Part shown: positions 16,558-35,117 of the stretch, piece by piece
How positions within the stretch are numbered: the first letter of the stretch is position 1
Layout: every line of letters starts with the position of its first letter
DNA from: a virus
Direction: 5' to 3' (one strand)
Virus record (IMG/VR): IMGVR_UViG_3300046006_001093
Coordinates: 1 to 37,257 of that record
Length of the DNA: 37,257 bases
The notes under the pieces: generated by a model
The model's input: only the letters and a program-made list of their open reading frames with translations
The model's database searches: none
What the model was told of the DNA's origin: nothing
Translations under genes and position numbers: made by a program

Positions 16558-16766
16558 CAACTTTTACAATTGAAATAACAGACGAATCAAAGCTTGCTGG
16601 TATTACAGCAGCACGTAACAAGTACAATGAGAACTTACCTTTGACGATCACTGATGAAGAAGGTGATGAGATTCCTAATCCAGCTATTCTAGAAACTGAC
16701 GAAGATTATGTTCAGTTTGTAATGGATAAAGCATCTGAGAGTTATGCTAATCAGTACGGTACATAA
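16554..16766 (+). CDS. Small acidic protein after the long fibre
   Basis: 70 residues, strongly acidic (DEEGDEIPNP, ETDEDYVQFVMDKASESY). The start ATG overlaps the fibre stop (ATGA) and its own stop overlaps the next ATG by one base, so it is translated in series. The N-terminal FTIEITDESKLAGITAARNKYNE looks like a beta strand and then a helix. Similar small proteins follow fibre genes in related phages as far as I recall. A fibre assembly or chaperone role fits the position and the charge but is not shown by any motif. Confidence 0.75.
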   Translation: MTTFTIEITDESKLAGITAARNKYNENLPLTITDEEGDEIPNPAILETDEDYVQFVMDKASESYANQYGT

Positions 16767-17452
16767 TGGGTGTTAATTATAATAGTAAGATTGTTACTGA
16801 TGGTCTAGTGCTATGCCTGGATGCGGCTAATCGTAAGTCATATCCAGGTAGTGGTAGTACATGGGCTGATCTTGTAAGTAGTAACGTTGGAACATTAACA
16901 AACGGTCCTACTTTTGATACAGGAAACAGCGGTTCTATAGTTTTTGACGGCATAAACGATTTTGTTAACGTTGCTAGTCAATCTATAACCACAAATACTT
17001 CATTTACAGTTTGTTGTTCTGTTTACTTTACAAACTGGAATGATAACTCTTTTAAACCATTAGTTGATGCTGGTAATTTAGGAAGTGGTACTACAAGTTG
17101 GACTTTATCAAAAAACAATATAAATGAACTATTTGTGTCTGTTAATGGTGGATTCATTTCGTTAAATCCTAACATATCAAATAACACATGGTATCATATT
17201 GCTGCGACAGCTACGGCAGGAACGCCATATGTGTTAAGACTTTATGTGAATGGATTCGCAAGAACACCAACAAGTACATCAAATAGTAACTCTTTAACTG
17301 TTGCAACACAACCTGTTCGTATATTTGCCAGTAGCTTCAGTGCGATTTATACTGCTGGTAGAGTATCAAATGTGCAGATTTACAATCGTGCATTATCAGC
17401 ATCAGAAATTCAACAAAACTTCAATGCACTAAGAGGGCGCTATGGAATTTGA
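16766..17452 (+). CDS. LamG/concanavalin-like adhesin protein 1
   Basis: 228 residues forming one LamG-like jelly-roll domain (Laminin_G_3 type). Diagnostic pieces are an N-terminal IVTDGLVLCLDAANRKSYPGSGSTW, SIVFDGINDFVNV, the strand FTVCCSVYF, WYHIAATATAG with YVLRLYVNGF, and the C-terminal VQIYNRALSASEIQQNFNALRGRYGI, split here into motifs. Such domains bind glycans or other surface ligands. There is no signal peptide, which suits a virion protein. It is one of three paralogues in tandem (the others at 17695 and 18423) and overlaps its neighbours by 1 and 11 bases. It is likely a decoration or receptor-binding protein attached to tail fibres. Confidence 0.85.
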   Translation: MGVNYNSKIVTDGLVLCLDAANRKSYPGSGSTWADLVSSNVGTLTNGPTFDTGNSGSIVFDGINDFVNVASQSITTNTSFTVCCSVYFTNWNDNSFKPLVDAGNLGSGTTSWTLSKNNINELFVSVNGGFISLNPNISNNTWYHIAATATAGTPYVLRLYVNGFARTPTSTSNSNSLTVATQPVRIFASSFSAIYTAGRVSNVQIYNRALSASEIQQNFNALRGRYGI

Positions 17453-17705
17453 AACTAGACAATATGTCATCTTCAACGTATCAGAACTTGATCTGATCGA
17501 CTTCACACAAGTTCTTGAAACGTCAGCAGAGACAGTCAGACGTTCAGTTGATGGTACTAAAACATTTGTGAAGTGGGAAGGTTCTGTTGCTGCATGTGTA
17601 GAATCTCTCATCACAAAAGGTGAATATCTGACATATGAAGAGATATTAGCTATCATGAACACAGAAGAGTGGACTACACCAATGGACGAGATGAATGGGT
17701 CTTAA
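17442..17705 (+). CDS. Small protein between LamG paralogues
   Basis: 87 residues, acidic overall. It starts 11 bases inside the preceding LamG gene and ends 11 bases inside the following one, so all three are translationally coupled. It has a beta strand (RQYVIFNVSEL), two helix-like parts (LIDFTQVLETSAETVRRSV and YLTYEEILAIMNTEEW) and a short strand between (KTFVKWEGSV). As with the 70-residue protein before LamG 1, a small acidic gene precedes a LamG gene, so a chaperone or adaptor pairing is plausible. No recognised family. Confidence 0.7.
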   Translation: MEFETRQYVIFNVSELDLIDFTQVLETSAETVRRSVDGTKTFVKWEGSVAACVESLITKGEYLTYEEILAIMNTEEWTTPMDEMNGS

Positions 17706-18426
17706 TCATTCACCTCGAATTGTCACTGATGGTTTAGTTCTGTGTTTGGATGCAGCTAATCGCAGATCGTATCCTGGTAGTGGTAACACATGGATTGATT
17801 TAAGTGGTAATGGTTATCATCTTACTCTGACGAACGGTCCTACATATAGCTCAAACAATAGCGGAGGAATAGTATTCGATGGTATAAACGATTATGCTTT
17901 AGGAACAGATACTATCAGAGTTGGTGGTAAAAATAAAACACTGACAACTGAAATTGCTTTTTTCTTACCTACTTCTGGAATAGGAATGATTTTAACCAAT
18001 CAGAGACAGGGTGGAGATAACGGACAAGGTCTCTATACATGCAGTAACACTACACTACAATTTGAACAACACTCGCGAACAGCACCTCCTTACTTATATT
18101 ATCTAACAGCATCAGCTCAAGGATTTTCCAATCTAAGAATTGATGGTTGGAATATAGTCTCTTGGGGTTTGACAATTGGAACATCAAATATCTCATGTAA
18201 TTACATGATTAATGGATACACTGAAACAATTTCAAATACAATTGTTTGGGACGGTGTAGAAAGCTTGACCGACGATAATCTCGAAATAGGAAGATGGAAA
18301 AATCACACGTATGGTGATTTCTATGGTAAACAAACAGTCGGAAGTCTTAAAGTTTATAATAGAGTTTTGAGTGTCAGTGAACAGTTAAGAAACTTCAATG
18401 CTCTCAGAGGAAGATACGGAATATGA
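17695..18426 (+). CDS. LamG/concanavalin-like adhesin protein 2
   Basis: 243 residues, same architecture as its neighbours: RIVTDGLVLCLDAANRRSYP at the N-terminus, DLSGNGYHLTLTNGPTY, GIVFDGINDYAL, a central jelly-roll, and SLKVYNRVLSVSEQLRNFNALRGRYGI at the end. The ends are almost identical to paralogue 1, while the middle has diverged (it contains TNQRQGGDNGQGLYTC and DGWNIVSWGLTIG), which is what one expects if the variable core binds ligand. It overlaps the next gene by four bases. Confidence 0.85.
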   Translation: MGLNHSPRIVTDGLVLCLDAANRRSYPGSGNTWIDLSGNGYHLTLTNGPTYSSNNSGGIVFDGINDYALGTDTIRVGGKNKTLTTEIAFFLPTSGIGMILTNQRQGGDNGQGLYTCSNTTLQFEQHSRTAPPYLYYLTASAQGFSNLRIDGWNIVSWGLTIGTSNISCNYMINGYTETISNTIVWDGVESLTDDNLEIGRWKNHTYGDFYGKQTVGSLKVYNRVLSVSEQLRNFNALRGRYGI

Positions 18427-19190
18427 GTGTCTATGCTGGTCCTGAGATATCAAATGATAGTTTAGTTTTACATCTTGACGCTGCTAACCGTAGATCGTAT
18501 TCAGGCAGCGGTACAACATGGACAGATTTAAGTGGTTTTGGACAAAACTTTACGTTGTATAATTTACCTACTTTTTCGAGTAACAGTCAAGGTGAACTTT
18601 TGTTTTCTGGTTCTAATGATTATGCGAGAATACGAGGAAGCAGTTCTATAGATTTGATGAACTCTAATGGAACAGTTGAAGTATGGTTTAGAACAATATC
18701 TAATACTTTAGGAACTGATGCTTATGCACGATTAATTAGCTTTTCTGATGAAGCAGGTACAGGATCTGATACAACTTCGACACAAACCAGTGAAAATGAT
18801 TTTAATACTTACCTGTGCGTAGTAAAAAATAATACAGACGAGAGATTGGCTTTATGGTATAAAAACAATCCAAGTGCTTTTGGTCCTGCAACTTTAGTAA
18901 ACACAAATCAACATTTCAATGCAGTCATATCTTGGTCTACAAACGCATCACAAATGACATTCAGCTTCTATTTAAATGGATCAGTTGCAAATACAAGTAC
19001 CGTAACTCAATCTGCATATAGCACAAGTGCATCTACAATAACGATTGGTCAAAACTCCAAAGGTGCACTTGGTAACACATTTCAAAATTCTACTTGTGCT
19101 TTTTCAATGATAAAAATGTACAACAGAGCATTAACAGCAGCAGAAATACGACAAAACTTCAATGCACACCGCGGCCGCTTCGGGATATGA
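18423..19190 (+). CDS. LamG/concanavalin-like adhesin protein 3
   Basis: 255 residues, third LamG paralogue. The N-terminal motif is changed to NDSLVLHLDAANRRSYSGSG, followed by TWTDLSGFGQNFTLYN, LLFSGSNDYARI, GTVEVWFRT, MTFSFYLNGS and the C-terminal MIKMYNRALTAAEIRQNFNAHRGRFGI. It lacks the preceding small acidic partner that paralogues 1 and 2 have. Its TGA is the first part of a GATAAATA box that may drive the next fibre gene. Glycan or surface binding is likely from the family. Confidence 0.85.
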   Translation: MSVYAGPEISNDSLVLHLDAANRRSYSGSGTTWTDLSGFGQNFTLYNLPTFSSNSQGELLFSGSNDYARIRGSSSIDLMNSNGTVEVWFRTISNTLGTDAYARLISFSDEAGTGSDTTSTQTSENDFNTYLCVVKNNTDERLALWYKNNPSAFGPATLVNTNQHFNAVISWSTNASQMTFSFYLNGSVANTSTVTQSAYSTSASTITIGQNSKGALGNTFQNSTCAFSMIKMYNRALTAAEIRQNFNAHRGRFGI

Positions 19191-21323: not shown

Positions 21324-22283
21324 ATGCCTATTATAGTATACAGATCAACAGACCCAGGCGCACCAGCTCTTAACGGAACAGCAGGCTCACTTGTGAACGT
21401 TCTTGATGCGATTCTTGTGAACGGTTATGGTGCAAAGGCTAACGCTGGTTGGGGTATTGCAAATACAGGTACAAACAAAAGAGTTTATCGATCAAACGGA
21501 GGTTCTACACGATATTTTTATCGTGTACAGGACGATGGCCCAGGCACTGGCAACACGCGAGAAGCAAGAATTTATGGGTCTGAAGGAACAACAAACATCG
21601 ATACTCAAACTAACAAATTTCCTGCATCACAATTTATCGTAAGAAAATCAATGACTACCGACACAGCTAACAATCAATGGATTGCTGTGGCTGACAATAG
21701 AACACTATATTTCTTTAATAGAGTTCGAGATTTTCCAGGTTGGACTGCATTCATGTTTGGTGAATATTATTCACTGAAACCAACTACAGATGCAAACAAT
21801 GCAATAATTATGGGTCGTACAACGGAACAAACTAGCGTAAGCACAACATATCCTTCACCTGCAGGTGAAGGTCTAGCAACTTTATCTGCTGTTAATGCTA
21901 CAGTTGCTGGTACTGCAATGCCTAGAACTTATAATGAATTTTTTGGTCCAGTTACACCAGGCAAACATGGAAATCCTGCACATTCAGCAGCAACTTTAGT
22001 CGGGCTGTCGATATATCCTAATTTTAGTGCAAACATACATTTGACACCAATATCAATTACAGAAAACGCTGCATATCCAGTATTAAGAGGCAGAATGCGT
22101 GGTCTATATCACATTCTGCACCCAGCAAGCGCAAATCTTCAGAGCAACGTCAGTTGGACAGGCACAAGCACATGGTTAGGTGTTGGTTCAATGTCTGGCA
22201 AGACATTCATGTCAATTTCTCCGACGGCCGATGGCACTGGCATTTATGTTATTGAAACATCAGACACATGGGAGACTAATTGA
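21324..22283 (+). CDS. Tail-associated paralogue A (YRSTD family)
   Basis: 319 residues, first of three tandem paralogues. The family begins with IVYRSTDPGAPALNGTAGSL, VLDAILVNGYGAK and AGWGIA, then has RYFYRVQDDG, EARIYGSEG, WIAVADNRTLYFFNRV, FMFGEYYS in the middle, and ends with ISPTADGTGIYVIETSDTWETN. I know this family as unnamed phage proteins near tail fibres of various tailed phages. There is no enzyme motif, signal peptide or membrane segment. The pattern of short strands and conserved aromatic residues suggests a beta-rich virion domain. A ribosome site (AAAAGGAA) precedes the ATG. This copy is the most diverged of the three. Confidence 0.8.
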   Translation: MPIIVYRSTDPGAPALNGTAGSLVNVLDAILVNGYGAKANAGWGIANTGTNKRVYRSNGGSTRYFYRVQDDGPGTGNTREARIYGSEGTTNIDTQTNKFPASQFIVRKSMTTDTANNQWIAVADNRTLYFFNRVRDFPGWTAFMFGEYYSLKPTTDANNAIIMGRTTEQTSVSTTYPSPAGEGLATLSAVNATVAGTAMPRTYNEFFGPVTPGKHGNPAHSAATLVGLSIYPNFSANIHLTPISITENAAYPVLRGRMRGLYHILHPASANLQSNVSWTGTSTWLGVGSMSGKTFMSISPTADGTGIYVIETSDTWETN

Positions 22284-22314
22284 TGACTGTTACCGTTTAT
22301 AGATCCACAGATGC
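22247..22314 (+). repeat. 68-nt exact repeat across gene junction A/B
   Basis: Identical to 23227-23294. It spans the last codons of paralogue A, the overlapping stop and start (TGATG) and the first codons of paralogue B. A third copy with one change covers the end of paralogue C (24227-24273). Confidence 0.92.
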
Positions 22315-23263
22315 CAGCGCACCAACTTTGACTGGTCAAATCGGTTCACTTTGTACTGTACTTGATGCTATTCTAGTGAATGGTTATGGCGCAAAAGCCG
22401 CGGCTGGTTGGTCATTAGTTACAAGTTCACCTATACAAGGAAAAAGAACATATCGAGTTGGCGCTGGTAATATGCGAGCATACTTGCGTGTTCATGATGA
22501 TTCCCAAAACGTTTTTGCTTTAGGTCGCGAAGCTCGTCTTAGAGGTTTTGAAACTGAATCAGGATTTTCAACAGACATTGGTGCGTTTCCTTTAGCCAGC
22601 CAAGCGGGTAACGGTATCATTTTTAGAAAGTCTGCAAGTAACGACTCTACAACAAGACCTTGGGTTGCCATAGCTGATGATAGAACGTTATACTTTTTTG
22701 CATTGTCTGGTGATTATATTGGTTATTCGAGCTTTATGTTTGGTGAATACTATTCATTTAAAGGCGGTGATAACTTCAATAGTATTATTATAGGTAACGT
22801 TACAGAAAGAGCAGTGGCGGCTACTACTGGTGCTATCACTGCTGCATTGCCAACACAGGAAACATTAGATACTTTTGCAGCACCAACAGCGGCAGTTGCA
22901 GGTCACTTTGTTGCAAGAAGTTTTAGTGAGTATTACCAGCCTTCATTTCCTGTAGGTAAATATGGACATGCTGGACACTCTGCCGTAACGTCAGTTGGTC
23001 TTTATAACTACCCTAACAACTATGATAATAACATTCATTTGTGGCCAGTTACTATAGTAGAACCATATGTCAATAATGTTATTAGAGGTCGTTTAAGAGG
23101 TTTCTGGCATTTCCTACATCCAGTAGGTGTTCCTATATATGACGGTGAAACATGGTCGGGCACTGGTGATTATAACGGCAAGACATTTATGGCTATTAAA
23201 CCTACAGCACAAGGTACTGGAGTATTTGTTATTGAAACATCAGACACATGGGAGACTAATTGA
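22283..23263 (+). CDS. Tail-associated paralogue B (YRSTD family)
   Basis: 326 residues from the ATG at 22283, which overlaps the previous stop in TGATG; an in-frame TTG three bases earlier is a less likely start. It is closer to paralogue C than to A, sharing MTVTVYRSTDASAPTL, RVHDDSQNVFALGREARLRGF, PWVAIADDRTLYFF, YIGYSSFMFGEYYS, GRLRGFWHFLHPVGV and the C-terminal VIETSDTWETN. Conserved ends and frame with a variable middle suggest duplication followed by diversification of a surface-exposed protein. Role unknown; tail or fibre decoration is the best guess from position. Confidence 0.8.
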   Translation: MTVTVYRSTDASAPTLTGQIGSLCTVLDAILVNGYGAKAAAGWSLVTSSPIQGKRTYRVGAGNMRAYLRVHDDSQNVFALGREARLRGFETESGFSTDIGAFPLASQAGNGIIFRKSASNDSTTRPWVAIADDRTLYFFALSGDYIGYSSFMFGEYYSFKGGDNFNSIIIGNVTERAVAATTGAITAALPTQETLDTFAAPTAAVAGHFVARSFSEYYQPSFPVGKYGHAGHSAVTSVGLYNYPNNYDNNIHLWPVTIVEPYVNNVIRGRLRGFWHFLHPVGVPIYDGETWSGTGDYNGKTFMAIKPTAQGTGVFVIETSDTWETN

Positions 23264-23294
23264 TGACTGTTACCGTTTATAGATCCACAGATGC
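23227..23294 (+). repeat. 68-nt exact repeat across gene junction B/C
   Basis: Second copy of the 22247-22314 block, across the stop and start of paralogues B and C. Further exact stretches shared by B and C include a 44-base block encoding GRLRGFWHFLHPVG (near 23088 and 24098) and a 36-base block near 23180 and 24189. Confidence 0.92.
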
Positions 23295-24273
23295 TAGTGC
23301 ACCAACTCTTAACGGAACAGCAGGGTCACTTTGTACTGTACTTGATGCTATTCTAGTAGATGGTTATGGTGCTAAGCCTGGTGCTGGTTGGTCAAAAATA
23401 TTATCATCAACATCAAATCCACTAATTAGCGGTGGAACTGCTGGAGCAAAAAGAATTTATCGTTGCGGTTCTGGAGCTATGAGACCTTATCTTCGTGTTC
23501 ATGATGATTCCCAAAACGTTTTTGCTTTAGGTCGAGAAGCTCGTCTTAGAGGTTTTGAAGGTGCCGAATCATCTTTCGATTTGAACATTGGTGCATTTCC
23601 TACATTAGGACAGGCAGCTAACGGTATCATATATCATAAATCTGCTTGGACAGATACAGCGGCAAGACCTTGGGTTGCTATAGCTGATGATCGTACAATA
23701 TATTTCTTCTCATTACCTGGTGATTATATTGGTTATGCGAGCTTTATGTTTGGTGAATACTATTCACTGAAGTCTACTACTGACTCATATAACGGTATGA
23801 TCATTGGTCGTATAACTGAACGTACAGCCGCTGCCGCTGCATTAACTGTGGCATTATCTACACAAGAGACTCTCGAAACGCTATCAGTATTGCCTGCAAC
23901 AGTTCCAGGTCACTTCACTGCAAGAGGTTTTGGTGAACATTATCAACCATCTATGCCTGTAGGCAAACATGGTAGTGGCATACACTCTGCGACAACACTT
24001 TCAGGTCTTTTTGTATATCCCAACTCAGTTGATGCTGGTTTGTATTTGTCTCAGGTTTGGGTACACGAACCTTTAGGTAACTCGGCTGTTGTGCGCGGTC
24101 GTTTAAGAGGTTTCTGGCATTTCCTACATCCAGTAGGTGTACAAGTTGCTGATGGTGATATGTGGAATGGGACTGGTGCACTTGCTGGTAAGACATTTAT
24201 GGCTATTAAACCTACAGCACAAGGTGCTGGAGTATTTGTTATTGAAACATCAAACACATGGGAGACTAATTGA
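23263..24273 (+). CDS. Tail-associated paralogue C (YRSTD family)
   Basis: 336 residues from the ATG at 23263 (TGATG overlap with paralogue B). Same layout as B, with a longer insertion after AGWSKI (about residues 38-60, NPLISGGTAGAKRIYRCG) and a changed central part (TERTAAAAALTVALSTQE). The C-terminus differs from B by an Asp-to-Asn change near the end. Its stop is followed directly by a TTG start of the next small gene. No named function; likely a virion surface protein. Confidence 0.8.
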   Translation: MTVTVYRSTDASAPTLNGTAGSLCTVLDAILVDGYGAKPGAGWSKILSSTSNPLISGGTAGAKRIYRCGSGAMRPYLRVHDDSQNVFALGREARLRGFEGAESSFDLNIGAFPTLGQAANGIIYHKSAWTDTAARPWVAIADDRTIYFFSLPGDYIGYASFMFGEYYSLKSTTDSYNGMIIGRITERTAAAAALTVALSTQETLETLSVLPATVPGHFTARGFGEHYQPSMPVGKHGSGIHSATTLSGLFVYPNSVDAGLYLSQVWVHEPLGNSAVVRGRLRGFWHFLHPVGVQVADGDMWNGTGALAGKTFMAIKPTAQGAGVFVIETSNTWETN

Positions 24274-24605: not shown

Positions 24606-25580
24606 ATGAAAAATTTTGTCAGTTATGCCATCAGTAACGGTGGCAAAATCAAACCATTATTAGTAGATGCTGCATCAACAAACGGCACAGGTCTTTTTAA
24701 TCCTAGTGTGTTTGTTGATGATGATAAAACATATATCAACATACGTCATTGCCAGTATACTCTATACCACGCAGAGTTGGGCAAACACGAACATCCATAC
24801 GGCCCTCTAGTATATTTTAATCCAGAAAATGATATCACACTGACAACCACCAATTACTTTGGTGAGTTGAATGATGATCTATCAATCAAGTGGATACATA
24901 AGATTGACACTTCTAAGTTGGATGTCAAACCATTATGGGAATTTATTGGGCTAGAAGATGTACGTATTGTTAAGTGGAAGAATGCAATGTATATATGTGG
25001 TGTCAGACGAGACACAACACCAAACGGCGAAGGTCGTATGGAACTATCTGAGATAGAAATTGGTAATGGATATGTGAAAGAAGTGTCGCGCTTTCGCATA
25101 CCTGCACCTGTTCCTAATGCATCCTATTGTGAGAAAAATTGGATGCCAATTTTACATGAAGATTTTACATTCTTAAAGTGGTGTAATCCAGTCGAGATTG
25201 TATCTTTTGATCTTAAAGACGCTACATGTAAAACAAAATTTTTAGGTAATCAAGTTAACTTCGATAGAGATCAGAGGGGCGGTGGTCAAGTAATTTTGTG
25301 GGAAGACGGATATCTGACGCTCACACATGAGACTGATTTGTTCAATAGTGAAGTCGGTAAGAAAAACGCGACATATAAACATCGGTTTATTCATTGGGAC
25401 AAAAATTGGAATGTAATTACCAAGTCGCCTGTATTCTCGTTTATGGATGCAAAGATTGAGTTTGCATGTGGATTAGCTAAGAAGAATGATAAGATACTAA
25501 TCACATTTGGTTTTCAAGATAATGCTGCGTTCGTATTAGAATGTCCTAGTGATGCTGTGAAGGAATTTATAAATGCTTGA
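24606..25580 (+). CDS. GH43/GH130-like five-bladed beta-propeller protein
   Basis: 324 residues. The repeating pattern fits a five-bladed propeller of the GH43/GH130 (mannoside phosphorylase-like) group: FNPSVFVDDDKTYINIRH (31-48), GLEDVRIVKWKNAMYICG (115-132), CEKNWMPIL (175-183), RGGGQVILWEDGYLTLTH (224-241), HRFIHWDKNW (259-268) and IEFACGLA (284-291). The Leu-Glu-Asp, Glu-Lys-Asn-Trp and Glu-Phe motifs correspond to family positions that bind sugar or phosphate. Families like this act on or bind mannose-type and related glycans. No signal peptide, so it would work in the host cytoplasm or on the virion. It overlaps by eight bases the TPR-methyltransferase fusion, and the two probably modify or build the same glycan. 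Substrate unknown. Confidence 0.7.
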   Translation: MKNFVSYAISNGGKIKPLLVDAASTNGTGLFNPSVFVDDDKTYINIRHCQYTLYHAELGKHEHPYGPLVYFNPENDITLTTTNYFGELNDDLSIKWIHKIDTSKLDVKPLWEFIGLEDVRIVKWKNAMYICGVRRDTTPNGEGRMELSEIEIGNGYVKEVSRFRIPAPVPNASYCEKNWMPILHEDFTFLKWCNPVEIVSFDLKDATCKTKFLGNQVNFDRDQRGGGQVILWEDGYLTLTHETDLFNSEVGKKNATYKHRFIHWDKNWNVITKSPVFSFMDAKIEFACGLAKKNDKILITFGFQDNAAFVLECPSDAVKEFINA

Positions 25581-27450
25581 TGCTTTTATTGTTGATTATG
25601 CGAACGATTCAGAAAATCCAATCAAGAACTATAAAGTTGGTTTAGAGTATGAACGACTTGGTCATACAGCAGCCGCCATTTCATATTTTCTACGTGCAGC
25701 CGAGAGAACTGACAATGATGATTTGTCTTATGAGTGTTTGATACGTATAGGTTTCTGTTTTGAACGTCAACGAAACAGAAACTACACAGTCAAAAGTATG
25801 TTCTATGCTGCTATGTCATTGATTCCAGAAAGACCAGAAGCATATTATCATTTATCTAGAATGCTAGAGAGTGAAAAACAACATTTTGAAGCATACTCGA
25901 TGGCCGAAGTTGGCTTAACCATCAGTAAGACCGATTTTAACAATCTCAATATCGATTATGGTGGTCGTGGTTACTTACTCTTTCAGAAAGCAGTTAATGC
26001 ATGGTGGAGAGGTAGATGTATGGAAGCCAGAAAGATATTCCAGGACATCCTCAACAATCATTGGTCAGAACTGGATGATAAACATAAGAATTTGGTTGAA
26101 AACAATATAACATCGCTTGGTTCTGGACCATATAGTTATGCATTCAAAATGTATAAAGATGATATGTATGACAAGCTACGGTATAAATTTCCTGGTTCTG
26201 ACAAAATCAAGAACAACTATTCTCAAGTATATCAAGACTTGTTTATCTTATCATTGCTCAACGGTAAACGAAATGGATCTTTCTTAGAAATCGGTGGTGC
26301 CGACCCTTGGATGGGTAATAACACAGCCCTATTAGAAACAGAGTTTGATTGGACTGGTGTCTCTATTGAATATGATAAGAAGTTTATTGATAACTATAAG
26401 GTAAATAGACCTAAAACTAAAGTTCTACACCATGATGCACTAACTGTTGATTACACTAAGGTATTATCAGAGAACTATGGTGATAGTAAGATCATCGACT
26501 ATCTTCAACTGGACATTGAACCAGCTAAAAATACCTATGAATGTATGATGAAGATTCCATTTGATGATTTTAAATTTCGTGTGATTACTTATGAGCATGA
26601 CTACTATGCAGACATAACAAGATCATACCGTGACAAATCTAGAGAATACCTTAAATCAAAAGGATATGTGTTAGTTGTAAATGATATCTCACCTGATGGT
26701 ATATGTAACTTCGAAGATTGGTGGGTTCATCCAGAACTAATTGATATTGATATTCTCAATAGTATGATCGATACTGACGAAAAAACAAAATCTGCTACAG
26801 ACTATATGTTTCCAGATAAACCAATCAAGATAGAGCATATGTCTGAGATGAAAGATTATAATATCTACAATAGTAATATGAGAAAGACTTCATGGATTGT
26901 AGATAGTTTTTACTCCGAGCCTGAAAAAATAAGAAAGTTTGCTCTTGAACAAAATTATCTAGAGGGTGGATTAGGTAGAGGTTTTATTGGTCGCAGAACA
27001 CAGCAACAGTTTCTATTTCCAGGCCTAAAAGAAAAGTTTCAAGACATTATGGGCAAGACCATTACCAAGTGGGAAGATTATGGAATGAACGGTAGATTTC
27101 AGATAGCATGGTCTGGTGAACCATTAGTATATCATTGCGACAGCCAAAGGTGGGGAGGTATGTTATATCTCACACCAGGTGCACCATATCAATGTGGCAC
27201 AACTCTTTATGCAAACAAGCAAACTAGAGCTAGGACATACTATGACCAGGGTTGGGATGCAGCATGGACAAATGTGCCTGGTGATTGTCATCTAGATGGA
27301 ACACCATTCGAATCAGTTGATGTTCTTGGTAATGTGTATAATCGTCTTGTTATCTTCGATGCATCTTGTATTCACTCAGCATCTCAGTATTTTGGTACCG
27401 TTAAAACAAATGCTCGATTGTGGCAGATGTTCTTCTTTGATACTGAATGA
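25573..27450 (+). CDS. TPR / FkbM methyltransferase / 2OG-Fe(II) oxygenase-like fusion
   Basis: 625 residues with three parts. Residues 1-200 are TPR-like helical repeats (YEREGH-like GLEYERLGHTAAAISYFLRA, then PEAYYHLSRMLES). Residues about 215-395 are an FkbM-type SAM methyltransferase: glycine-rich motif FLEIGGADPWMGNNT (237-251), acidic strand end SIEYDKK (264-270) and DYLQLDIEP (309-317). Residues about 435-625 resemble the DUF6445 / 2OG-Fe(II) oxygenase fold, with a possible iron triad His521, Asp523 (YHCDSQRWGGMLYL) and His601 (FDASCIHSAS) and Arg615 near the end as a possible 2OG contact. FkbM enzymes O-methylate sugars or small molecules. With the propeller gene upstream, glycan tailoring is the most likely job, on the host surface or on the virion. 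Domain calls are from motifs only; substrates are unknown. Confidence 0.78.
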   Translation: MLDAFIVDYANDSENPIKNYKVGLEYERLGHTAAAISYFLRAAERTDNDDLSYECLIRIGFCFERQRNRNYTVKSMFYAAMSLIPERPEAYYHLSRMLESEKQHFEAYSMAEVGLTISKTDFNNLNIDYGGRGYLLFQKAVNAWWRGRCMEARKIFQDILNNHWSELDDKHKNLVENNITSLGSGPYSYAFKMYKDDMYDKLRYKFPGSDKIKNNYSQVYQDLFILSLLNGKRNGSFLEIGGADPWMGNNTALLETEFDWTGVSIEYDKKFIDNYKVNRPKTKVLHHDALTVDYTKVLSENYGDSKIIDYLQLDIEPAKNTYECMMKIPFDDFKFRVITYEHDYYADITRSYRDKSREYLKSKGYVLVVNDISPDGICNFEDWWVHPELIDIDILNSMIDTDEKTKSATDYMFPDKPIKIEHMSEMKDYNIYNSNMRKTSWIVDSFYSEPEKIRKFALEQNYLEGGLGRGFIGRRTQQQFLFPGLKEKFQDIMGKTITKWEDYGMNGRFQIAWSGEPLVYHCDSQRWGGMLYLTPGAPYQCGTTLYANKQTRARTYYDQGWDAAWTNVPGDCHLDGTPFESVDVLGNVYNRLVIFDASCIHSASQYFGTVKTNARLWQMFFFDTE

Positions 27451-29021: not shown

Positions 29022-29333
29022 ATGAATGATGAAAACACAAATGTGGTAATTAATTTTGGAAATCCTCAACACAGAGCTGCTTTAGTTAATGTATCAACTG
29101 GTATTGTTGAAAATGTCATTGTTGTAAACTCATTTGAAGATGAAGTTCCTGCTGGTTATACAATCAAGCCCATAACAATAATTGACCTGGTGGGTGAAAT
29201 AACACAGGAATATTTGGATATGATTGATATTATCAAACAGATTGATCCAGATTATAAAACACCAACTAAAGAGATAGAGATAAGACTCAATGTAACTAAA
29301 TGGAGTGAAGAAAGAGGATTTTATACTGAATAA
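29022..29333 (+). CDS. Small protein after the adhesin (fibre-assembly-like)
   Basis: 103 residues. The motif RAALVNVSTGIVENVIVVNSFEDEVPAGYTIKPI resembles small domains found in phage fibre-assembly or tail-chaperone proteins, where a description of the value is followed by an acidic loop and a Pro-Gly-Tyr (motif quoted in part: ALVNVSTGIVENVIVV). The C-terminal part is charged (YLDMIDIIKQIDPDYKTPTKEIEIRL). AGGAG at 29008-29012 lies 9 bases before the ATG. It follows the glycine-rich adhesin, so helping that protein fold or attach is plausible. Function is inferred from position and loose similarity. Confidence 0.65.
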   Translation: MNDENTNVVINFGNPQHRAALVNVSTGIVENVIVVNSFEDEVPAGYTIKPITIIDLVGEITQEYLDMIDIIKQIDPDYKTPTKEIEIRLNVTKWSEERGFYTE

Positions 29334-29359: not shown

Positions 29360-30364
29360 ATGCAGAATAGTTTATTTTGGGTAAATTCTGGAAACAACGT
29401 TGTAACAAACAAGAAAGCTTTTTCAGAATTATATGACTATACCAATCTTAGATACAATATCAATCCAGCATTTGAAAACATTGATTGGACCAAAGAACCT
29501 ACCAAAACCCTCAAGCAACTATATAAAGAAAGAGCAGAGCAACTAAGAACTGACTATGACTATCTGATCGTATATTTTAGTGGTGGTTCAGACTCAATTA
29601 CAGTCGTAAACTCATTTTTAGATAATGATATACCCATAGACGAGATAGTCATCAATTCATTCACACAAGTGGATAAAGATGTTCTGAATTGTGACTATGC
29701 CAAGAGGTATCTTAAGCTTCGATCATTCAGAGGCAAGATAACTATCAATAATTTGGATCTTGATAAGATCAACACCATCATAGATAAGCAGTTGTGGTTT
29801 TATGATGAGTACAATTTTTCTGGTTTGTTGCCGTCATTGTCGAGAAGAAAAATATGTTTCTTCGAACAAAACAACTTACTTTCTTATACAAAAAGAATTG
29901 GTAAAGTGGCTCATATTTTTGGAGCAGAGTTTCCAGATATCACATGTCGCGAAGGTTCGTTCTACTGTAATATCAAATATTCTTCATTCGTAAACAATTT
30001 TGGATATCACGAAGCTTCAATCTTCTTTTTTATTCCAATTGAACATCCAGCTGTGTTTGTCAAGCAATGTCACGTACTAGCAAGGTATATGCATAAGACT
30101 GGTCTTTCGAAAGAAAGTGATTGTAAAATATCCATACGTGATGAATTTAATCCAGCTATGTCTAGTGTCAAAACTGGTGGACGTTCAAAAAACCAATTTT
30201 TGGCTGGCACTGAAAGTAGAATGATATTAGAAACATACATATCAGATAGTAAGTTCAAAGACTTATATAAGAATGCACTATATAATGAATTATTAAAACC
30301 ACAGGTAAACAAAGTAGTATTACTCAATGGATATAAATCATTTAAATTGTTTGATGTTGATTGA
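29360..30364 (+). CDS. PP-loop ATPase A (ATP pyrophosphatase-like)
   Basis: 334 residues. A clear PP-loop, YFSGGSDSI (Ser74-Gly-Gly-Ser-Asp-Ser79), lies at the end of a hydrophobic strand (YDYLIVYF), preceded by a helix rich in charged residues (LKQLYKERAEQLRTDY). PP-loop enzymes cleave ATP to AMP and PPi and adenylate a substrate, as in asparagine synthetase, PAPS reductase-type, tRNA-thiolation and QueC enzymes. I see no CxxC zinc site or glutaminase domain here, and the C-terminal two thirds match no subfamily I know. Related genes annotated as PAPS-reductase-like occur in marine T4-like phages as far as I recall. The next start is two bases after its stop, so the two PP-loop genes are coupled. 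Substrate unknown. Confidence 0.75.
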   Translation: MQNSLFWVNSGNNVVTNKKAFSELYDYTNLRYNINPAFENIDWTKEPTKTLKQLYKERAEQLRTDYDYLIVYFSGGSDSITVVNSFLDNDIPIDEIVINSFTQVDKDVLNCDYAKRYLKLRSFRGKITINNLDLDKINTIIDKQLWFYDEYNFSGLLPSLSRRKICFFEQNNLLSYTKRIGKVAHIFGAEFPDITCREGSFYCNIKYSSFVNNFGYHEASIFFFIPIEHPAVFVKQCHVLARYMHKTGLSKESDCKISIRDEFNPAMSSVKTGGRSKNQFLAGTESRMILETYISDSKFKDLYKNALYNELLKPQVNKVVLLNGYKSFKLFDVD

Positions 30365-30366
30365 AA

Positions 30367-31164
30367 ATGACCACTGAAAATAACTGGTTGACACACAATC
30401 TTCGTGAACGCCTGACCGATCCTAACACAGATTTCAATCATACTATAAAAGTTGATATGTTTGATGACATCACGTTTGACGAGGCCAGCACTGAAGTCTG
30501 CTACAAATTACAAGCAATCAACCCTAATATTTTTTTAGGTTTGAGTGGTGGTTTAGATTCCGAATACGTGTTCAGAAAGCTCCATTCACTAGAAATACCT
30601 TTCACATCGGTAATTGTACAGTGTCCTTGTTATACCAAAGAAACACAGATTGCCTTTAATTTGTGTAAAGAGTATGGTGTTGAACCTGTTGTTATAGAAA
30701 TCAGTGAAAAAGAGATGTTTTTATACTATCATAAGAACATTTATGAATCGTTCAACGGTATAGGTATAGGTTCTGTAGCATCAATTACAGCAACCGAGTA
30801 TGCAAAAAATCACAATGGAATTTTTATAAAGTCTGAACACACAATTGGTGATATAGACGGAAAAGTTGCAATAGAAATGAACGAGTTTGATTTCTATTGC
30901 AATATCAACTACGATAACTCATATAACTTTTTCATGTATACGCCTGAGATTGTATATTCTTTAGCCAAATGTATGGGGAACACCGACTCGCAGACATTCA
31001 AGTGTGCTATGTTCAACATACCCTATAGAGAAAAGATTTATCCTAATTACTCTCCACATATTATGGTTTGTTACAAATATGCGATTTCAAAAAGAAAATA
31101 CCGACCAAGTTCTAAATACACAGAAATACCAAAAAAATTTATTGAGGATCATTTTAAAAAATGA
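30367..31164 (+). CDS. PP-loop ATPase B (asparagine-synthetase-like loop)
   Basis: 265 residues from the ATG at 30367; a TTG two codons earlier is possible but less likely. The loop is IFLGLSGGLDSEYVFRKL (Ser60-Gly-Gly-Leu-Asp-Ser65), the form typical of asparagine-synthetase-type PP-loop enzymes, after a strand and before a helix. Further residues such as VIVQCPCYTKETQIAFNLCKEYG fit the Rossmann-like alternation. There is no glutaminase domain and length is half that of AsnB, so it is a stand-alone adenylating or ligating enzyme at most. Low similarity to PP-loop A beyond the loop suggests two different roles rather than a recent duplication. The stop overlaps the fatty acid hydroxylase start by four bases. 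Substrate unknown. Confidence 0.75.
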   Translation: MTTENNWLTHNLRERLTDPNTDFNHTIKVDMFDDITFDEASTEVCYKLQAINPNIFLGLSGGLDSEYVFRKLHSLEIPFTSVIVQCPCYTKETQIAFNLCKEYGVEPVVIEISEKEMFLYYHKNIYESFNGIGIGSVASITATEYAKNHNGIFIKSEHTIGDIDGKVAIEMNEFDFYCNINYDNSYNFFMYTPEIVYSLAKCMGNTDSQTFKCAMFNIPYREKIYPNYSPHIMVCYKYAISKRKYRPSSKYTEIPKKFIEDHFKK

Positions 31165-31595
31165 CCTATGTTGCAATCTTTATATCTTGGACTTTCGTAA
31201 TCTATTGGATGCATAGACTGGTACATTGCATTCCTTTTCTGCAAACAATACATGCTGACCATCACAGATACGTGAATAATCATGATATTGGATGGCATTG
31301 GTCAAACGTTTTCCTGTATAATGATACATGGATGAGTACACTGGATCTATGGATTACTGAAGTAATACCAACAATGATCATAAGTTTCTTTTTTGGTTAT
31401 TGGCTGTTTGTGCTATACTATTTCTGGGCTGCTTTCATACAAGAGACAATAGAACATAATAATAAATTTGATCTGTATCCTTGGTTAACAAGTGGTAAAT
31501 GGCATATGATGCACCATAAAAACAACAGTTGCAACTATGGTGTGTTTTTTCCTATATGGGATATTTTGTTCAATACACGAAAAGTCGTAAACTAA
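31161..31595 (+). CDS. Membrane fatty acid hydroxylase / sterol desaturase superfamily protein
   Basis: 144 residues, compact for the family. The di-iron histidine boxes are present: His18-x3-His22 (HRLVH), His31-AD-His34-His35 (HADHH), His99 (IEHNN) and His115-MM-His118-His119 (HMMHH). The C-terminal NYGVFFPIWDILFNT is a family signature. Hydrophobic segments at about 1-17 and 65-95 would place it in a membrane with the di-iron site on the cytoplasmic face. The superfamily hydroxylates or desaturates acyl chains, carotenoids or sterols using oxygen. The ATG overlaps the PP-loop B stop (ATGA), so the three genes form one translated unit. A phage copy could change host lipids late in infection; the substrate cannot be told. 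Confidence 0.88.
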   Translation: MTYVAIFISWTFVIYWMHRLVHCIPFLQTIHADHHRYVNNHDIGWHWSNVFLYNDTWMSTLDLWITEVIPTMIISFFFGYWLFVLYYFWAAFIQETIEHNNKFDLYPWLTSGKWHMMHHKNNSCNYGVFFPIWDILFNTRKVVN

Positions 31596-31597
31596 CT

Positions 31598-32503
31598 TTA
31601 TTTTTGATCTAATATGTTAGAAAAATCCCATATACCTGTTTCAGGTCTATTTCTGATTGTATAATGTATAGTTGTCTGAAGATGATTTAGTATCTTATCT
31701 TTCGTATCTAATGTAATTACGTTGTTTTTATGATCAAAAACTTTACAGATATTGCCTTTTTTCATCTCTACAGGTAACCAGTATCTCATGGGTGCAGATA
31801 GACTATTTCCACCACCATACTCTATAGATTTCATACGGCGCCAGGCATCAATCTGACTTGCTCCATAACCAATATCCATCAATTGTAATACCTTTTCATC
31901 CCATAGACATTTATAACAGAGACCACATGAACTAATCTGTTTAGTTTCTTCATCTAGTACGGGCGAGAAACATGAAATTGTCTTACTTCTAATTGCCTCG
32001 GGTAAATATGTGAACACGTGGTATCTGTTGAATTTTTCATGATAGCTGTCATCTGCCAGAGGATGAGTCATCTCACCTCTAGTCATCAACTTATTCCAAA
32101 GATTAAGGGAAGCAAAGTATGTTGGAGTTCCTTTGATATTTTTACCTTTGAAAAGAGATTGATTCTGTTGTTCCCAAGTTCTACCTGTCACCAATCTATC
32201 ATATTTGGAATTATTGATGTGTTCACTTGACCATTCAATACCATAAAGCATTTGGTGGTTGTTCTCATCGTTAATATTACTGGAAACAACTTCCTCGACA
32301 ATCACATCAAAATCTCTGATTTTTTTCAGTTCAGCAATAAGATCGTCGAAGTTGTGCATGAAGATTGCTCTGTTTGCCCATTTCAGATTCTCATCTTTTG
32401 TTGTCAGCGTGACAGTTGTTAACGGTTCATCCGTTTCAGATAAAATCTTATACGCAATGTAAGCCGAATCTGCACCACCAGAAAACAATAGCAGATTTTT
32501 CAT
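31598..32503 (-). CDS. QueC-like PP-loop ATPase with four-cysteine zinc site
   Basis: 301 residues on the minus strand, the only such gene in the window. The N-terminal MKNLLLFSGGADSAYIAYKI has the PP-loop Ser8-Gly-Gly-Ala-Asp-Ser13. Near residue 178 lies Cys178, then Cys193-GL-Cys196-YK-Cys199, the C-x14-CxxCxxC arrangement of a QueC-type zinc site. QueC (about 220 residues) converts carboxydeazaguanine to the nitrile preQ0; the longer length and an unfamiliar middle (about 80-170) make a different substrate possible. No other deazaguanine gene is visible in the window. A ribosome site (AAGGAG) lies upstream of the ATG and a late promoter box on the same strand is 37 bases from the start. 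It converges with the fatty acid hydroxylase gene, with two bases between the stops. Confidence 0.8.
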   Translation of the reverse strand: MKNLLLFSGGADSAYIAYKILSETDEPLTTVTLTTKDENLKWANRAIFMHNFDDLIAELKKIRDFDVIVEEVVSSNINDENNHQMLYGIEWSSEHINNSKYDRLVTGRTWEQQNQSLFKGKNIKGTPTYFASLNLWNKLMTRGEMTHPLADDSYHEKFNRYHVFTYLPEAIRSKTISCFSPVLDEETKQISSCGLCYKCLWDEKVLQLMDIGYGASQIDAWRRMKSIEYGGGNSLSAPMRYWLPVEMKKGNICKVFDHKNNVITLDTKDKILNHLQTTIHYTIRNRPETGIWDFSNILDQK

Positions 32504-32539
32504 ACTAACTCCTTTTTAATATATATAATGTGTTCTCTC

Positions 32540-32547
32540 TATTTATA
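32540..32547 (-). promoter_or_regulatory. Minus-strand late promoter box (TATAAATA)
   Basis: The plus strand reads TATTTATA, so the minus strand reads exact TATAAATA, 36 bases upstream of the QueC-like start at 32503 and inside the 61-base gap between divergent genes. The plus strand here also has TATAAAAG at 32544-32551 and TATAAT at 32524-32529, either of which might serve the TctC gene, but neither is a good match with proper spacing. Confidence 0.65.
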
Positions 32548-32564
32548 AAAGGTATTTCTAACCA

Positions 32565-33539
32565 ATGAAAAGTTTTATAGTTGCTGTGTTGTTGATGATA
32601 TCATCAACAATTGTTCTTGCATCTCAACCACTAAATATCGTTGTTCCGAGTATACCAGGTGGCGGAGCAGACGTACATGCCAGACTTGTATCAAAACACC
32701 TAATCAAATATATCAATACACCAGTCAATGTTATGAATATGCAAGGTGCTGGTGGCCTTACCATGTCAAACTGGATATACAATGTGTCAGACCAGCAGAA
32801 TACAATAGGCATTCTGTCTGTAAACAATAACACAATAACACACGGCATATTGAAAGAGGAAAATGTAAAGTATGATATACAGAAGTTCAAATGGCTTCTA
32901 TCACTAGAAGATGGAGATAAGAATGTCTTTGTCCTCTGGGCAAACAGAACTAGAGGACTAGACAATATCACAATGCTCTTAAAACCAGATAACATTTTTG
33001 TTATTGGAAACCAGGGTCCAAATAATATTCAGACATATTTTATTTCTACTGTTATTGGTGTTAAATCTAAGATCATATTTGGATACAAAGATATCATCAA
33101 AGCATTGGAAATGAACGAGATCGACGCCAGATTTGGTACTATAATGAGTGCAGAGTCTAGATATCCTCAATGGCTGACAGGACAAGATGTTATTGTTCCT
33201 ATTCTACAGATGGGTGCACCACATAGACACCCTTCAATCAAAAATGTTCCAAATATTAGAGAGCTTGTCAAAGATGATAATGATCTAAAACTAATCACAT
33301 TCTATGAAAAATTAGTTAAGTTATCGCGCCTTGTAATAGCACCTCCAAATATGAAGTCAGATAGAGTAGAATTTATCATTGATGCATTGATGAACATGAG
33401 ACAGGATAAAGATTTTATCTCTGACAGTGACAAACTCAATCTAGATTTTAATTTCATCAATCAAAATGAAACTAGTATACTTATACAAGACATTTTAAAC
33501 ACTGATCCTTCTATAGTCAGAATGTTTATAAATAAGTAA
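32565..33539 (+). CDS. TctC/Bug-type periplasmic solute-binding protein
   Basis: 324 residues. A signal peptide is clear: basic start (MKSF), hydrophobic core (IVAVLLMISSTIVLA) and likely cleavage near Ala19/Ser20. The mature start NIVVPSIPGGGADVHARLVSKHL matches the TctC (Bug) signature IVVP..PGGG.D..AR, followed by NMQGAGGLTMSNW (the family's GAGG ligand-contact segment). Length matches the usual ~320 residues. These proteins bind carboxylates such as citrate or dicarboxylates in the periplasm and feed the tripartite TctAB transporter. No TctA or TctB gene is here, so it would have to work with a host transporter, much as phage PstS does for phosphate. It lacks a good ribosome site. The 3' end contains the late promoter box of gp13. 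A proteobacterial origin is inferred. Confidence 0.87.
   Translation: MKSFIVAVLLMISSTIVLASQPLNIVVPSIPGGGADVHARLVSKHLIKYINTPVNVMNMQGAGGLTMSNWIYNVSDQQNTIGILSVNNNTITHGILKEENVKYDIQKFKWLLSLEDGDKNVFVLWANRTRGLDNITMLLKPDNIFVIGNQGPNNIQTYFISTVIGVKSKIIFGYKDIIKALEMNEIDARFGTIMSAESRYPQWLTGQDVIVPILQMGAPHRHPSIKNVPNIRELVKDDNDLKLITFYEKLVKLSRLVIAPPNMKSDRVEFIIDALMNMRQDKDFISDSDKLNLDFNFINQNETSILIQDILNTDPSIVRMFINK
33527..33534 (+). promoter_or_regulatory. T4-type late promoter box before gp13
   Basis: Exact TATAAATA at the very end of the TctC gene, 31 bases before the gp13 ATG. It overlaps the last codons (Ile-Asn-Lys) and continues to the stop. Confidence 0.65.
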
Positions 33540-33565: not shown

Positions 33566-34405
33566 ATGTCTATTCCATCATCAAGAGAACAACTAAAAGA
33601 TTGGTGCCTTCGTCAGCTTGGGTTTCCAGTCATTGAAATCAATGTCGATGATGACCAGGTTGATGATCGTATCGATGAAGCATTGCAGTATTTCCAGCAG
33701 TTCCATTTTGATGGTGTTGAACGCTGGTACCTCAAGCATCAGATCACACAAGAGAATAAGGATAACGGCTATATTCCTATCACGGAAAACATTATAGGTG
33801 TTACTCGTATTTTTCCTGTAGGATCAACAAATGCTTCTGTAAATATGTTCGACCTGAGATATCAGTTGAGACTTCACGAACTTTATGACTTTACATCTAC
33901 ATCTTACGTCAACTATGTTCTTACAATGCAGCATATCCGTACACTGGATATGCTTTTTTCTGGTGAAACACCCATCAGATTCAATCGTCATACAGATAAA
34001 CTCTACATCGATTGGGATTGGGCAAATGATGTTGATGTTGGTGAATGGGTTATCATTGAAGGTTATATTATAGTTGATCCTAATACATATACAGATATTT
34101 ACAATGATCGTATGTTAAAAAAGCTGGCTACTGCTTACATCAAAAAGCAGTGGGGAGCAAACATGTCTAAGTTTGCTGGTATGCAGTTGCCTGGTGGTAT
34201 TACTATGAATGGTATACAGATATTTCAGGATGCTGTAGCTGAAATCAAAGAACTTGAAGAGTTGATTCGTGATACCTACGAGGAACCTCCTCAGTTTTTA
34301 TTAGGAACCTGGGTATCATTTTTTATAAATACTGCTATAGGGTCATCATTATTAGGATTTATGGGATATGCAGCAAAAATATGGAATTATATACCTATGG
34401 TTTGA
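33566..34405 (+). CDS. 13: Neck/head completion protein gp13
   Basis: 279 residues against 309 in T4 gp13. The sequence has the features I know from gp13 of T4-like phages: SREQLKDWCLRQLGFPVIEINVDDDQVDDRIDEAL at the N-terminus, YFQQFHFDGVERWYLKHQIT, GVTRIFPVG, YDFTSTSYVNYVLTMQHI and the C-terminal helix EIKELEELIRDTYEEPPQF (quoted in pieces of the conserved blocks). It completes the filled head and forms the neck with gp14 before tail joining. After about Gly247 the protein continues with a hydrophobic stretch (TWVSFFINTAIGSSLLGF) that I do not expect in gp13 and that coincides with the leader of the homing endonuclease. So the native C-terminus may have been extended by the insertion. It has its own late promoter. 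Confidence 0.92.
   Translation: MSIPSSREQLKDWCLRQLGFPVIEINVDDDQVDDRIDEALQYFQQFHFDGVERWYLKHQITQENKDNGYIPITENIIGVTRIFPVGSTNASVNMFDLRYQLRLHELYDFTSTSYVNYVLTMQHIRTLDMLFSGETPIRFNRHTDKLYIDWDWANDVDVGEWVIIEGYIIVDPNTYTDIYNDRMLKKLATAYIKKQWGANMSKFAGMQLPGGITMNGIQIFQDAVAEIKELEELIRDTYEEPPQFLLGTWVSFFINTAIGSSLLGFMGYAAKIWNYIPMV
34324..34331 (+). promoter_or_regulatory. Late promoter box for the homing endonuclease, inside gp13
   Basis: Exact TATAAATA within the unusual 3' tail of gp13, 37 bases before the endonuclease ATG, followed by AGGA at 34354-34357 as ribosome site. Late promoters are known ahead of T4 homing endonuclease genes. Confidence 0.55.
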
Positions 34406-35117
34406 TCGTAAGAAAAAAAAATTTTACTTAGGAGCACATTGGGGCACCATTGATGATGGATATATCTGTTCATCACGGTGGATGAAAAACACATATAAAA
34501 GACGACCTCAAGATTTTAAAAGGCGTATATTAGAAAAAGTAATATCAAACAAAGAAGAAATGTTTTTGAGAGAAGAAAATTGGTTGTCTCATATAAAAGA
34601 TAGTGAGTTAGGTATAAAATATTACAATTTACAAAAACACTGGAAACATTGGAATAGTAATCAAGAAAAATCGTTAACAGTTCGTGAAAAGTTATCTGAG
34701 GCATCAAAGAGACTGCATCAAGATCCCGAATATAAGAAAAATTATATTGAAGGTCGTAAAAAGATGCCTCCTCAGACACAAGAACAAATAGACAAGAGAG
34801 CCAAATCTAATACTGGTAAAAAACGTACAGAAGAAACTAAACAGAAGATAAGCGATAGTAACAAAGGTAAAGTTTTAGGTCCTTTAACCGAAGAACATCG
34901 TTTAAAAGTAAGTGAAGCCCTTAAAGGAAAAAAGAATCCTTTTTATGGCAAAACGCATGAACCTGAACTAAAGAAACGTATGAACGAAAAAACCAGTGCC
35001 ACTATGAAGGGTAAAATACCCGCAAACATACCAACAGGATTTTGGTGGAATAACGGCATCATAAATAAAAGAAGTTTAGAATGTCCTGATAATAATTGGA
35101 CAAGAGGAAGACTTTAA
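34368..35117 (+). CDS. GIY-YIG homing endonuclease with NUMOD repeats
   Basis: 249 residues. The catalytic domain is at the N-terminus: KYGIIYLWF (the GIY part) with FYLGAHWG (the YIG part), a basic HxxG region GYICSSRWMKNTYKRRPQDFKRRIL (about 31-55, quoted in part) and Glu70 in LREENWL, the usual metal-binding glutamate. Residues 105-200 are DNA-binding NUMOD3-type repeats (TEETKQKISDSNKGK, TEEHRLKVSEALKGKKNPF). The C-terminal WWNNGIINKRSLECP resembles other phage endonucleases of this type. It is a free-standing enzyme (no intron signs) that would cut gp13-gp14 DNA of related phages lacking it. It overlaps the gp13 end by 38 bases and lies three bases from the gp14 start. Confidence 0.9.
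   Translation: MQQKYGIIYLWFDRKKKKFYLGAHWGTIDDGYICSSRWMKNTYKRRPQDFKRRILEKVISNKEEMFLREENWLSHIKDSELGIKYYNLQKHWKHWNSNQEKSLTVREKLSEASKRLHQDPEYKKNYIEGRKKMPPQTQEQIDKRAKSNTGKKRTEETKQKISDSNKGKVLGPLTEEHRLKVSEALKGKKNPFYGKTHEPELKKRMNEKTSATMKGKIPANIPTGFWWNNGIINKRSLECPDNNWTRGRL

Follow-up and report, generated by a model that had tools for sequence, protein, structure and literature searches.

The closest described counterparts of the genes analysed here are the asparagine synthetases AsnB and ASNS (PF00733) and the beta-lactam and carbapenam synthetases. The latter carry a glutaminase-like N-terminal domain and serve small-molecule biosynthesis, in which they work with 2-oxoglutarate (2OG) oxygenases. Further points of comparison are the QueC/QatC/Cap9 enzymes (PF06508), the TctC/Bug binding proteins (PF03401) and the auxiliary metabolic genes of marine phages, which include 2OG oxygenases and tctA in SUP05 viral contigs (PMC4164917). 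The locus under study lies in a 37,257-base record of an uncultured, T4-like bacterial virus, possibly a fragment (IMG/VR record IMGVR_UViG_3300046006_001093; its whole length is referred to as the window). It is an island of five genes, which encode two PP-loop proteins (A and B), a fatty-acid-hydroxylase-like protein (FAH), a QueC-like PP-loop protein and a TctC-like secreted protein. Fibre-type genes lie upstream of the island and the neck protein gene gp13 lies downstream. The island is part of a module present in dozens of environmental viruses, in which an oxygenase gene and a gene for a secreted binding protein usually accompany the synthetase-like genes. It is an evenly balanced proposition that the island is the local form of a conserved phage module composed of ATP-dependent amide-forming ligases, a swappable oxygenase and cognate periplasmic carboxylate binders. 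The module probably makes or handles a small carboxylate-derived compound during infection.

The co-occurrence of A, B and an oxygenase is far above chance. Single-sequence searches with A and B gave no relatives, and the B family was reached only through an FAH seed followed by a B alignment. The search of IMG/VR with FAH alone yielded 12 other contigs; a B-type gene is present within 4 kb in all 12 and an A-type gene in nine. The B alignment searched against IMG/VR returned more than 100 stretches, from which 80 loci were kept, with 68 contigs beyond the FAH-seeded ones (the compared loci and contigs carry labels such as L003 and L012). An A-type gene occurs in 56 of these 68 contigs, FAH in 31, a Rieske-type oxygenase in 16 and a TctC-type gene in 44, counts which include some near-copies. 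The common order is fibre genes, c10 or c13 (the gene immediately preceding the island in related contigs), A, FAH, B, a 400-aa PP-loop paralog with a TctC-type gene, 2OG oxygenases, TctC and gp13. Gene order varies (A-FAH-B, FAH-B-A, A-B-FAH), as does the number of PP-loop copies. The genes are also found together in other surroundings: in L078, B and FAH occupy another T4-like locus, close to uvsW- and gp32-like genes; in L057, the Rieske version adjoins PhoH and exonuclease genes; and L083 has a minimal operon of B, A and a secreted protein on a contig that encodes a podovirus-type internal virion protein. The first-pass annotation had proposed a shared task for A, B and the hydroxylase, and this linkage across many viruses, in varied orders and places, supports the proposal; the random, scattered occurrence in related phages that would have spoken against it is not what the contigs show. 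A chance pile-up of unrelated cargo genes would be in keeping with the variable gene order and PP-loop copy number, but it is already contradicted by the co-occurrence counts across contigs (12/12 and 47/68). Further evidence against it comes from the overlapping genes, from their presence together at other loci and from the strong purifying selection, and a chance origin is extremely improbable.

Median dN/dS among related copies is 0.063 for FAH, 0.080 for B, 0.103 for A, 0.068 for TctC and 0.086 for the TctC-type protein paired with the 400-aa paralog, compared with 0.047 for gp13. Values of 0.06-0.10 reflect strong purifying selection; therefore, these are working genes.

A and B do not match a PP-loop family above cut-off, and a PDB profile search with A returned nothing relevant. 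The AlphaFold model of B, built on 68 B sequences, has a mean pLDDT of 97.3 and that of A, built on 62 A sequences, has a mean pLDDT of 80.5. In structure comparison the B model matches the synthetase half of human ASNS with a Z score of 14.2 over 238 of its 265 residues; the next matches are carbapenam and beta-lactam synthetases (Z 12.1-12.8), followed by NAD synthetase and LarE (about 11.4). The A model matches AsnB 1ct9 with a Z score of 12.9 over 287 of 334 residues (structure comparison by VIA), and beta-lactam synthetase (12.7) and carbapenam synthetase (10.9) come next. The AsnB-like hydroxyamidotransferase TsnB9 scores 8.8 against A, and other PP-loop classes score 8.1 or less (LarE 8.1). 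The predicted structures show the fold class of A and B to be that of the synthetase domain of asparagine/beta-lactam-type synthetases. The SGGxDS loop is invariant in the 68 B sequences and, save for its last S (98%), in the 62 A sequences. Both families also have a conserved C-terminal lysine (K212 in B, 97%; K235 in A, 95%), which could be the catalytic lysine of this synthetase class, and Q236 of A is kept at 95% or more. The invariant P-loop and the models confirm the earlier PP-loop assignment of A and B, and the prediction of adenylating or ligating enzymes is upheld at the level of the predicted fold.

A and B resemble AsnB and ASNS in a predicted fold that covers nearly all of both proteins, in the SGGxDS loop and in the C-terminal lysine. 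They differ in that they have no N-terminal Ntn glutaminase domain, the alignment being confined to the synthetase part (target residues 118 onward), are too remote to match Pfam Asn_synthase, and are encoded in a viral operon with an oxygenase. The fold is shared with the beta-lactam and carbapenam synthetases as well, but A and B lack the glutaminase-like domain of those enzymes, and no set of genes for clavams or carbapenems was recognised. As a side observation, L038 holds five B paralogs and L088 holds three, alongside Rieske-type genes, which suggests an expansion of ligase variants.

Sulfur transfer or 7-deazaguanine synthesis, meaning LarE, TtuA or QueC chemistry on nucleotides or tRNA, is a very unlikely function for these proteins. 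LarE, TtuA and QueC do rank among the next matches by structure or profile, and remote B homologs (L081, L086-L091) sit near genes that we take to be FolE-, QueD- and QueE-like from our own reading of the sequences rather than from database matches. There may be a gradual transition from the B family to the QueC proteins of phages. However, the AsnS-type structures score higher and align over the whole length, B has only one cysteine conserved at 90% or more (C100, 99%) with no cluster motif noted, and no queuosine genes were recognised in the FAH-bearing islands.

Most informative of all is the repeated association of a cytoplasmic ligase with a secreted binding protein. The 400-aa PP-loop paralog of the relatives overlaps or abuts a TctC-type gene, and at 28 sites a TctC-type gene comes immediately after an A-type PP-loop gene, at a distance of -53 to +12 bases. 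The distance matrices of ligase and TctC-type partner correlate with a Mantel r of 0.87, or 0.84 after the B distance is removed (24 distinct pairs), while other island pairs range from 0.22 (A-FAH) to 0.72 (FAH and the 2OG oxygenase c14), with FAH-B at 0.5-0.6. Since each 400-aa ligase paralog has an adjacent and co-diverging binding protein, the different versions are suggested to handle different ligands. The QueC-like gene with TctC is a second kind of pair and the one present in the window; QueC-like genes recur beside TctC genes in L006, L007, L014, L024, L026 and L065. In L024 and L026 the TctC and QueC-like genes are adjacent on opposite strands, with a tandem repeat of the pair in L026, and this arrangement is another form of the pairing of a PP-loop protein with a binding protein.

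The TctC-like protein of the window resembles the TctC/Bug family in its N-terminus, but it falls below the reporting level of Pfam TctC. Five of nine aligned relatives do match Pfam TctC (best 5e-10), and the family profile matches the TctC/Bug structures 8hka (0.0013), 2qpq (0.011) and 7ndr (0.012). Carboxylate capture, as proposed at first, fits the TctC family as a putative role, and the repeated pairing of PP-loop and TctC-type genes is a better clue than the first-pass annotation had. A role in nutrient acquisition, in which the secreted TctC-type proteins would supply carboxylates to TctA/TctB transporters of the host, for the enzymes to break down or assimilate as auxiliary metabolism for the phage, is unlikely. 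TctC family proteins deliver carboxylates, the best PDB profile matches include a terephthalate-binding protein, and Rieske oxygenases are typical of aromatic acid catabolism. Nevertheless, no TctA or TctB gene was recognised in the islands, where the binding proteins are instead paired with PP-loop enzymes; amide-forming synthetases are not catabolic, and there are several ligase paralogs per phage. The island is like the described phage auxiliary metabolic genes in being metabolic-looking cargo in marine phages, but those genes are reported singly (PMC4164917), whereas the island groups several genes into one module, which the screen of cellular genomes found almost nowhere.

FAH matches Pfam FA_hydroxylase at 2.1e-16 (61 bits against a cut-off of 31). 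Its histidine boxes HxxxH, HxxHH and HxxHH, which form the di-iron site, are invariant in 13 sequences, the invariant residues being H18, H22, H31, H34, H35, H99, H115, H118 and H119. An Acinetobacter phage FAH has 26.6% identity, and a PDB profile search with FAH found nothing. The islands of other phages have a Rieske-type oxygenase (Pfam Rieske 3e-6 in L027), and FAH and Rieske never occur in the same contig among the 68 B-bearing contigs. This mutual exclusion is expected if both fill one slot. Lipid hydroxylation, which had been suggested for the hydroxylase, is just one option, since a Rieske-type oxygenase takes the slot in other phages. Enzymes of the FA_hydroxylase family also act on non-lipid substrates.

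A membrane enzyme next to fibre genes could also point to the host surface. The ligases and oxygenase would then alter a surface or membrane molecule of the host, such as an amide of a lipopolysaccharide uronic acid, an aminolipid or a quinone, and so block superinfection or aid release. Such envelope modification is rather unlikely. It would explain the position of the island between fibre genes and gp13 in many contigs; FAH belongs to a membrane enzyme family, and some bacteria use AsnS-like enzymes to amidate their O-antigen uronic acids. The FAH of L012 has a weak match to the ornithine lipid hydroxylase OlsE (0.04), but this is far below the OlsE cut-off. In addition, none of the constant partners was recognised as a glycosyltransferase, these genes are also found away from the fibre genes, and the soluble secreted binding protein is left unexplained.

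The QueC assignment of the QueC-like window protein, like the TctC assignment of its neighbour, is weaker than that of FAH. The protein scores 0.005 against Pfam QueC (16.8 bits against a cut-off of 22) and 6e-4 against a QueC-like PHROG. Its PP-loop varies within the family, reading FSGGADS in the window protein, SNGADS in that of L006 and SGGMDT in that of L026. The SC(x)12-14CxxCxxC motif is conserved across nine aligned QueC-like rows and resembles the four-cysteine motif of QueC, QatC and Cap9, but its spacing of 12-14 differs from the canonical zinc motif C(x)8CxxCxxC (PMC13329287). No YxQxHxxE was seen in the window protein. QueC and 7-deazaguanine were rejected as the lead function since the cysteine spacing differs and no partner genes were recognised.

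In type IV CBASS, protein deazaguanylation is the work of QueC-family enzymes, and qatABCD also depends on such an enzyme (PMC13279940, PMC13329287). This precedent raises the possibility of defence or counter-defence, in which the PP-loop enzymes would conjugate a group bearing a carboxylate to a protein or nucleobase, as in QatC/Cap9. The window QueC-like protein matches QatC weakly (0.0025-0.005), but only over short stretches and without the canonical cysteine spacing. A PADLOC scan that covered ten island proteins gave only weak QatC, QueC and DpdF matches, with no match for A or B and no Qat or CBASS partner genes seen. Since the membrane oxygenase and the secreted protein are also left unexplained, conjugation of this kind is quite unlikely.

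Under the preferred reading of a ligase, oxygenase and binding-protein module, A and B would bind ATP at the SGGxDS loop and activate a carboxylate as acyl-AMP, which would be joined to ammonia or an amine to give an amide or lactam. Lacking a glutaminase domain, A and B would draw the nitrogen from free ammonia or from a second substrate. The membrane di-iron FAH, or the Rieske oxygenase of other phages, would hydroxylate the same compound; elsewhere it is accompanied by 2OG oxygenases, radical SAM or amidoligase-like proteins. The secreted TctC-type protein would bind the carboxylate substrate or product in the periplasm, and in the window the divergent QueC-like/TctC pair may fill the role of ligase and binding protein. 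The likely benefit would be a small compound or a modified envelope molecule made in infection. A bolder version is possible but doubtful: a modular viral kit in which glutaminase-less ligases with cognate secreted binders and an interchangeable oxygenase produce phage-specific amide or lactam compounds that are sensed or sequestered outside the cytoplasm.

Several points weigh against the proposed module. A shared fold does not determine the chemistry, as sulfur transfer of the LarE/TtuA type shares the same core. The Z scores of A are middling and parts of its model are weak. The window A lacks K191, which 95% of the A family keeps, and in a quick tree it groups with the L074 and L049 proteins as a divergent A subgroup. 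The window also lacks the 400-aa ligase and TctC pair behind the pairing result, and joint transfer also yields co-divergence of a pair without matched ligand specificity. The alternation of FAH and Rieske could also mirror lineage. Finally, some contigs are near-copies, so the counts are not independent and are overstated.

Among 50,697 phage records there is no match to A or B, to the 400-aa PP-loop paralog or to the TctC-type protein paired with it, and the B protein of L012 was also without a match there. In 84,980 prokaryote species genomes B was found at a single locus, in a Bdellovibrionaceae metagenome-assembled genome (MAG), by a scan that relies on short conserved patterns and that remote relatives can escape. 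A direct search of the order to which this MAG belongs found B-like genes in 25 of 141 genomes, where they in places adjoin fatty acid desaturase, Asp/Asn hydroxylase and B12-type radical SAM genes. In the same order the A family is all but missing (3/141, with partial P-loop matches only). B appears to have cellular cousins in similar enzymatic company, and A looks virus-specific within what was searched. The chromosomal Bdellovibrionota loci L092, L114 and L115 are like the island in having a B-like gene, some near these enzyme genes, but have no A-type family of convincing length and no established TctC pairing. Three further loci of this order (L117:2481-4958, L118:7194-9587 and L120:7010-9139) encode proteins of 709-825 aa with a B-like PP-loop region, and lie next to another B-like gene; no Pfam family matches the 797-aa protein.

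No published description of the gene set was found in the open-access papers searched, within which the earlier statement that no such system has been described holds. A new kind of viral small-molecule system is a real possibility. If the module reading is right, many uncultured T4-like phages and some others devote an island of several kb to biosynthetic-type chemistry. The island goes unlabelled in annotation pipelines, as none of A, B and the 400-aa paralog matches a named family or is carried by a phage in the record collection searched. Phage biology would gain a defined, testable module of ligase, oxygenase and cognate binding protein in place of scattered auxiliary genes, and enzymology and natural-product work would gain a new glutaminase-less branch of the AsnS/beta-lactam-synthetase-type enzymes.

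Table 1. Features of the island and its borders in the window
Feature	Position	Strand	Description
c10 small protein	29022-29333	+	103 aa; same family in the same place in L003, L006, L007, L008, L014
PP-loop A	29360-30364	+	334 aa; FSGGSDS; from the open reading frame list
PP-loop B	30367-31164 (from its ATG)	+	265 aa; LSGGLDS; from the open reading frame list
FAH	31161-31595	+	144 aa; Pfam PF04116; small membrane di-iron hydroxylase
QueC-like PP-loop protein	31598-32503	-	301 aa; FSGGADS; SC(x)12-14CxxCxxC motif
T4-type late promoter-like TATAAATA	32540-32547	-	about 37 bases before the QueC-like start codon
TctC-like secreted binding protein	32565-33539	+	324 aa; N-terminal signal-peptide-like stretch; divergent from the QueC-like gene
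gp13 neck protein	33566-34405	+	T4-type; matched by 1,130 phage records; borders the island on the right in many relatives

The open reading frame coordinates confirm that the five genes lie where the first-pass annotation had placed them (Table 1). The coupling it described is also present: the stop codon of A (30362-30364) is followed by a 2-base gap and the ATG of B, and B overlaps FAH by 4 bases, so that A, B and FAH form a tight plus-strand operon. It had omitted that the QueC-like gene is antisense to this operon. Since that gene is read from the minus strand, divergently to the TctC-like gene, it lies outside the operon. The c10 protein has no database match.

The island genes are probably expressed late, together with the fibre and neck genes, although this timing is only suggested by the sequence. 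The TATAAATA element occurs nine times in the window against 4.7 expected, which is suggestive only, and it precedes the QueC-like gene (32540, minus), gp13 (33527) and a fibre gene (27452). Scans for sigma-70 promoters and terminators were at chance level.

Additional genes were seen in and around the islands. Accessory genes at L006:2985-3803, L057:8838-9191 and L012:9227-9610 include an amidoligase-like protein (Pfam 5e-4) and small proteins of 115-150 aa between B and the next PP-loop gene. An AMP-binding (ANL) acyl ligase (L047:11280-12758, Pfam 2e-13) lies downstream of FAH-B and has relatives in L004. In the window, a NUMOD3/homing endonuclease gene (34368-35117, Pfam 7e-17) overlaps the end of gp13 and precedes gp14; a relative also lies between gp13 and gp14 in L008, L014 and L079. 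Adjoining the fibre genes is a 625-aa protein (25573-27450), the C-terminal part of which matches PHROG 1644 (1.5e-28). We take its start to be TPR-like and its middle to be methyltransferase-like, and it is possibly a multi-enzyme protein. The tail region has two sets of three tandem paralogs at 16766-19190 and 21324-24273 (PHROG 24074/8510 and PHROG 9600), which suggests repeated duplication of fibre or tail assembly genes.

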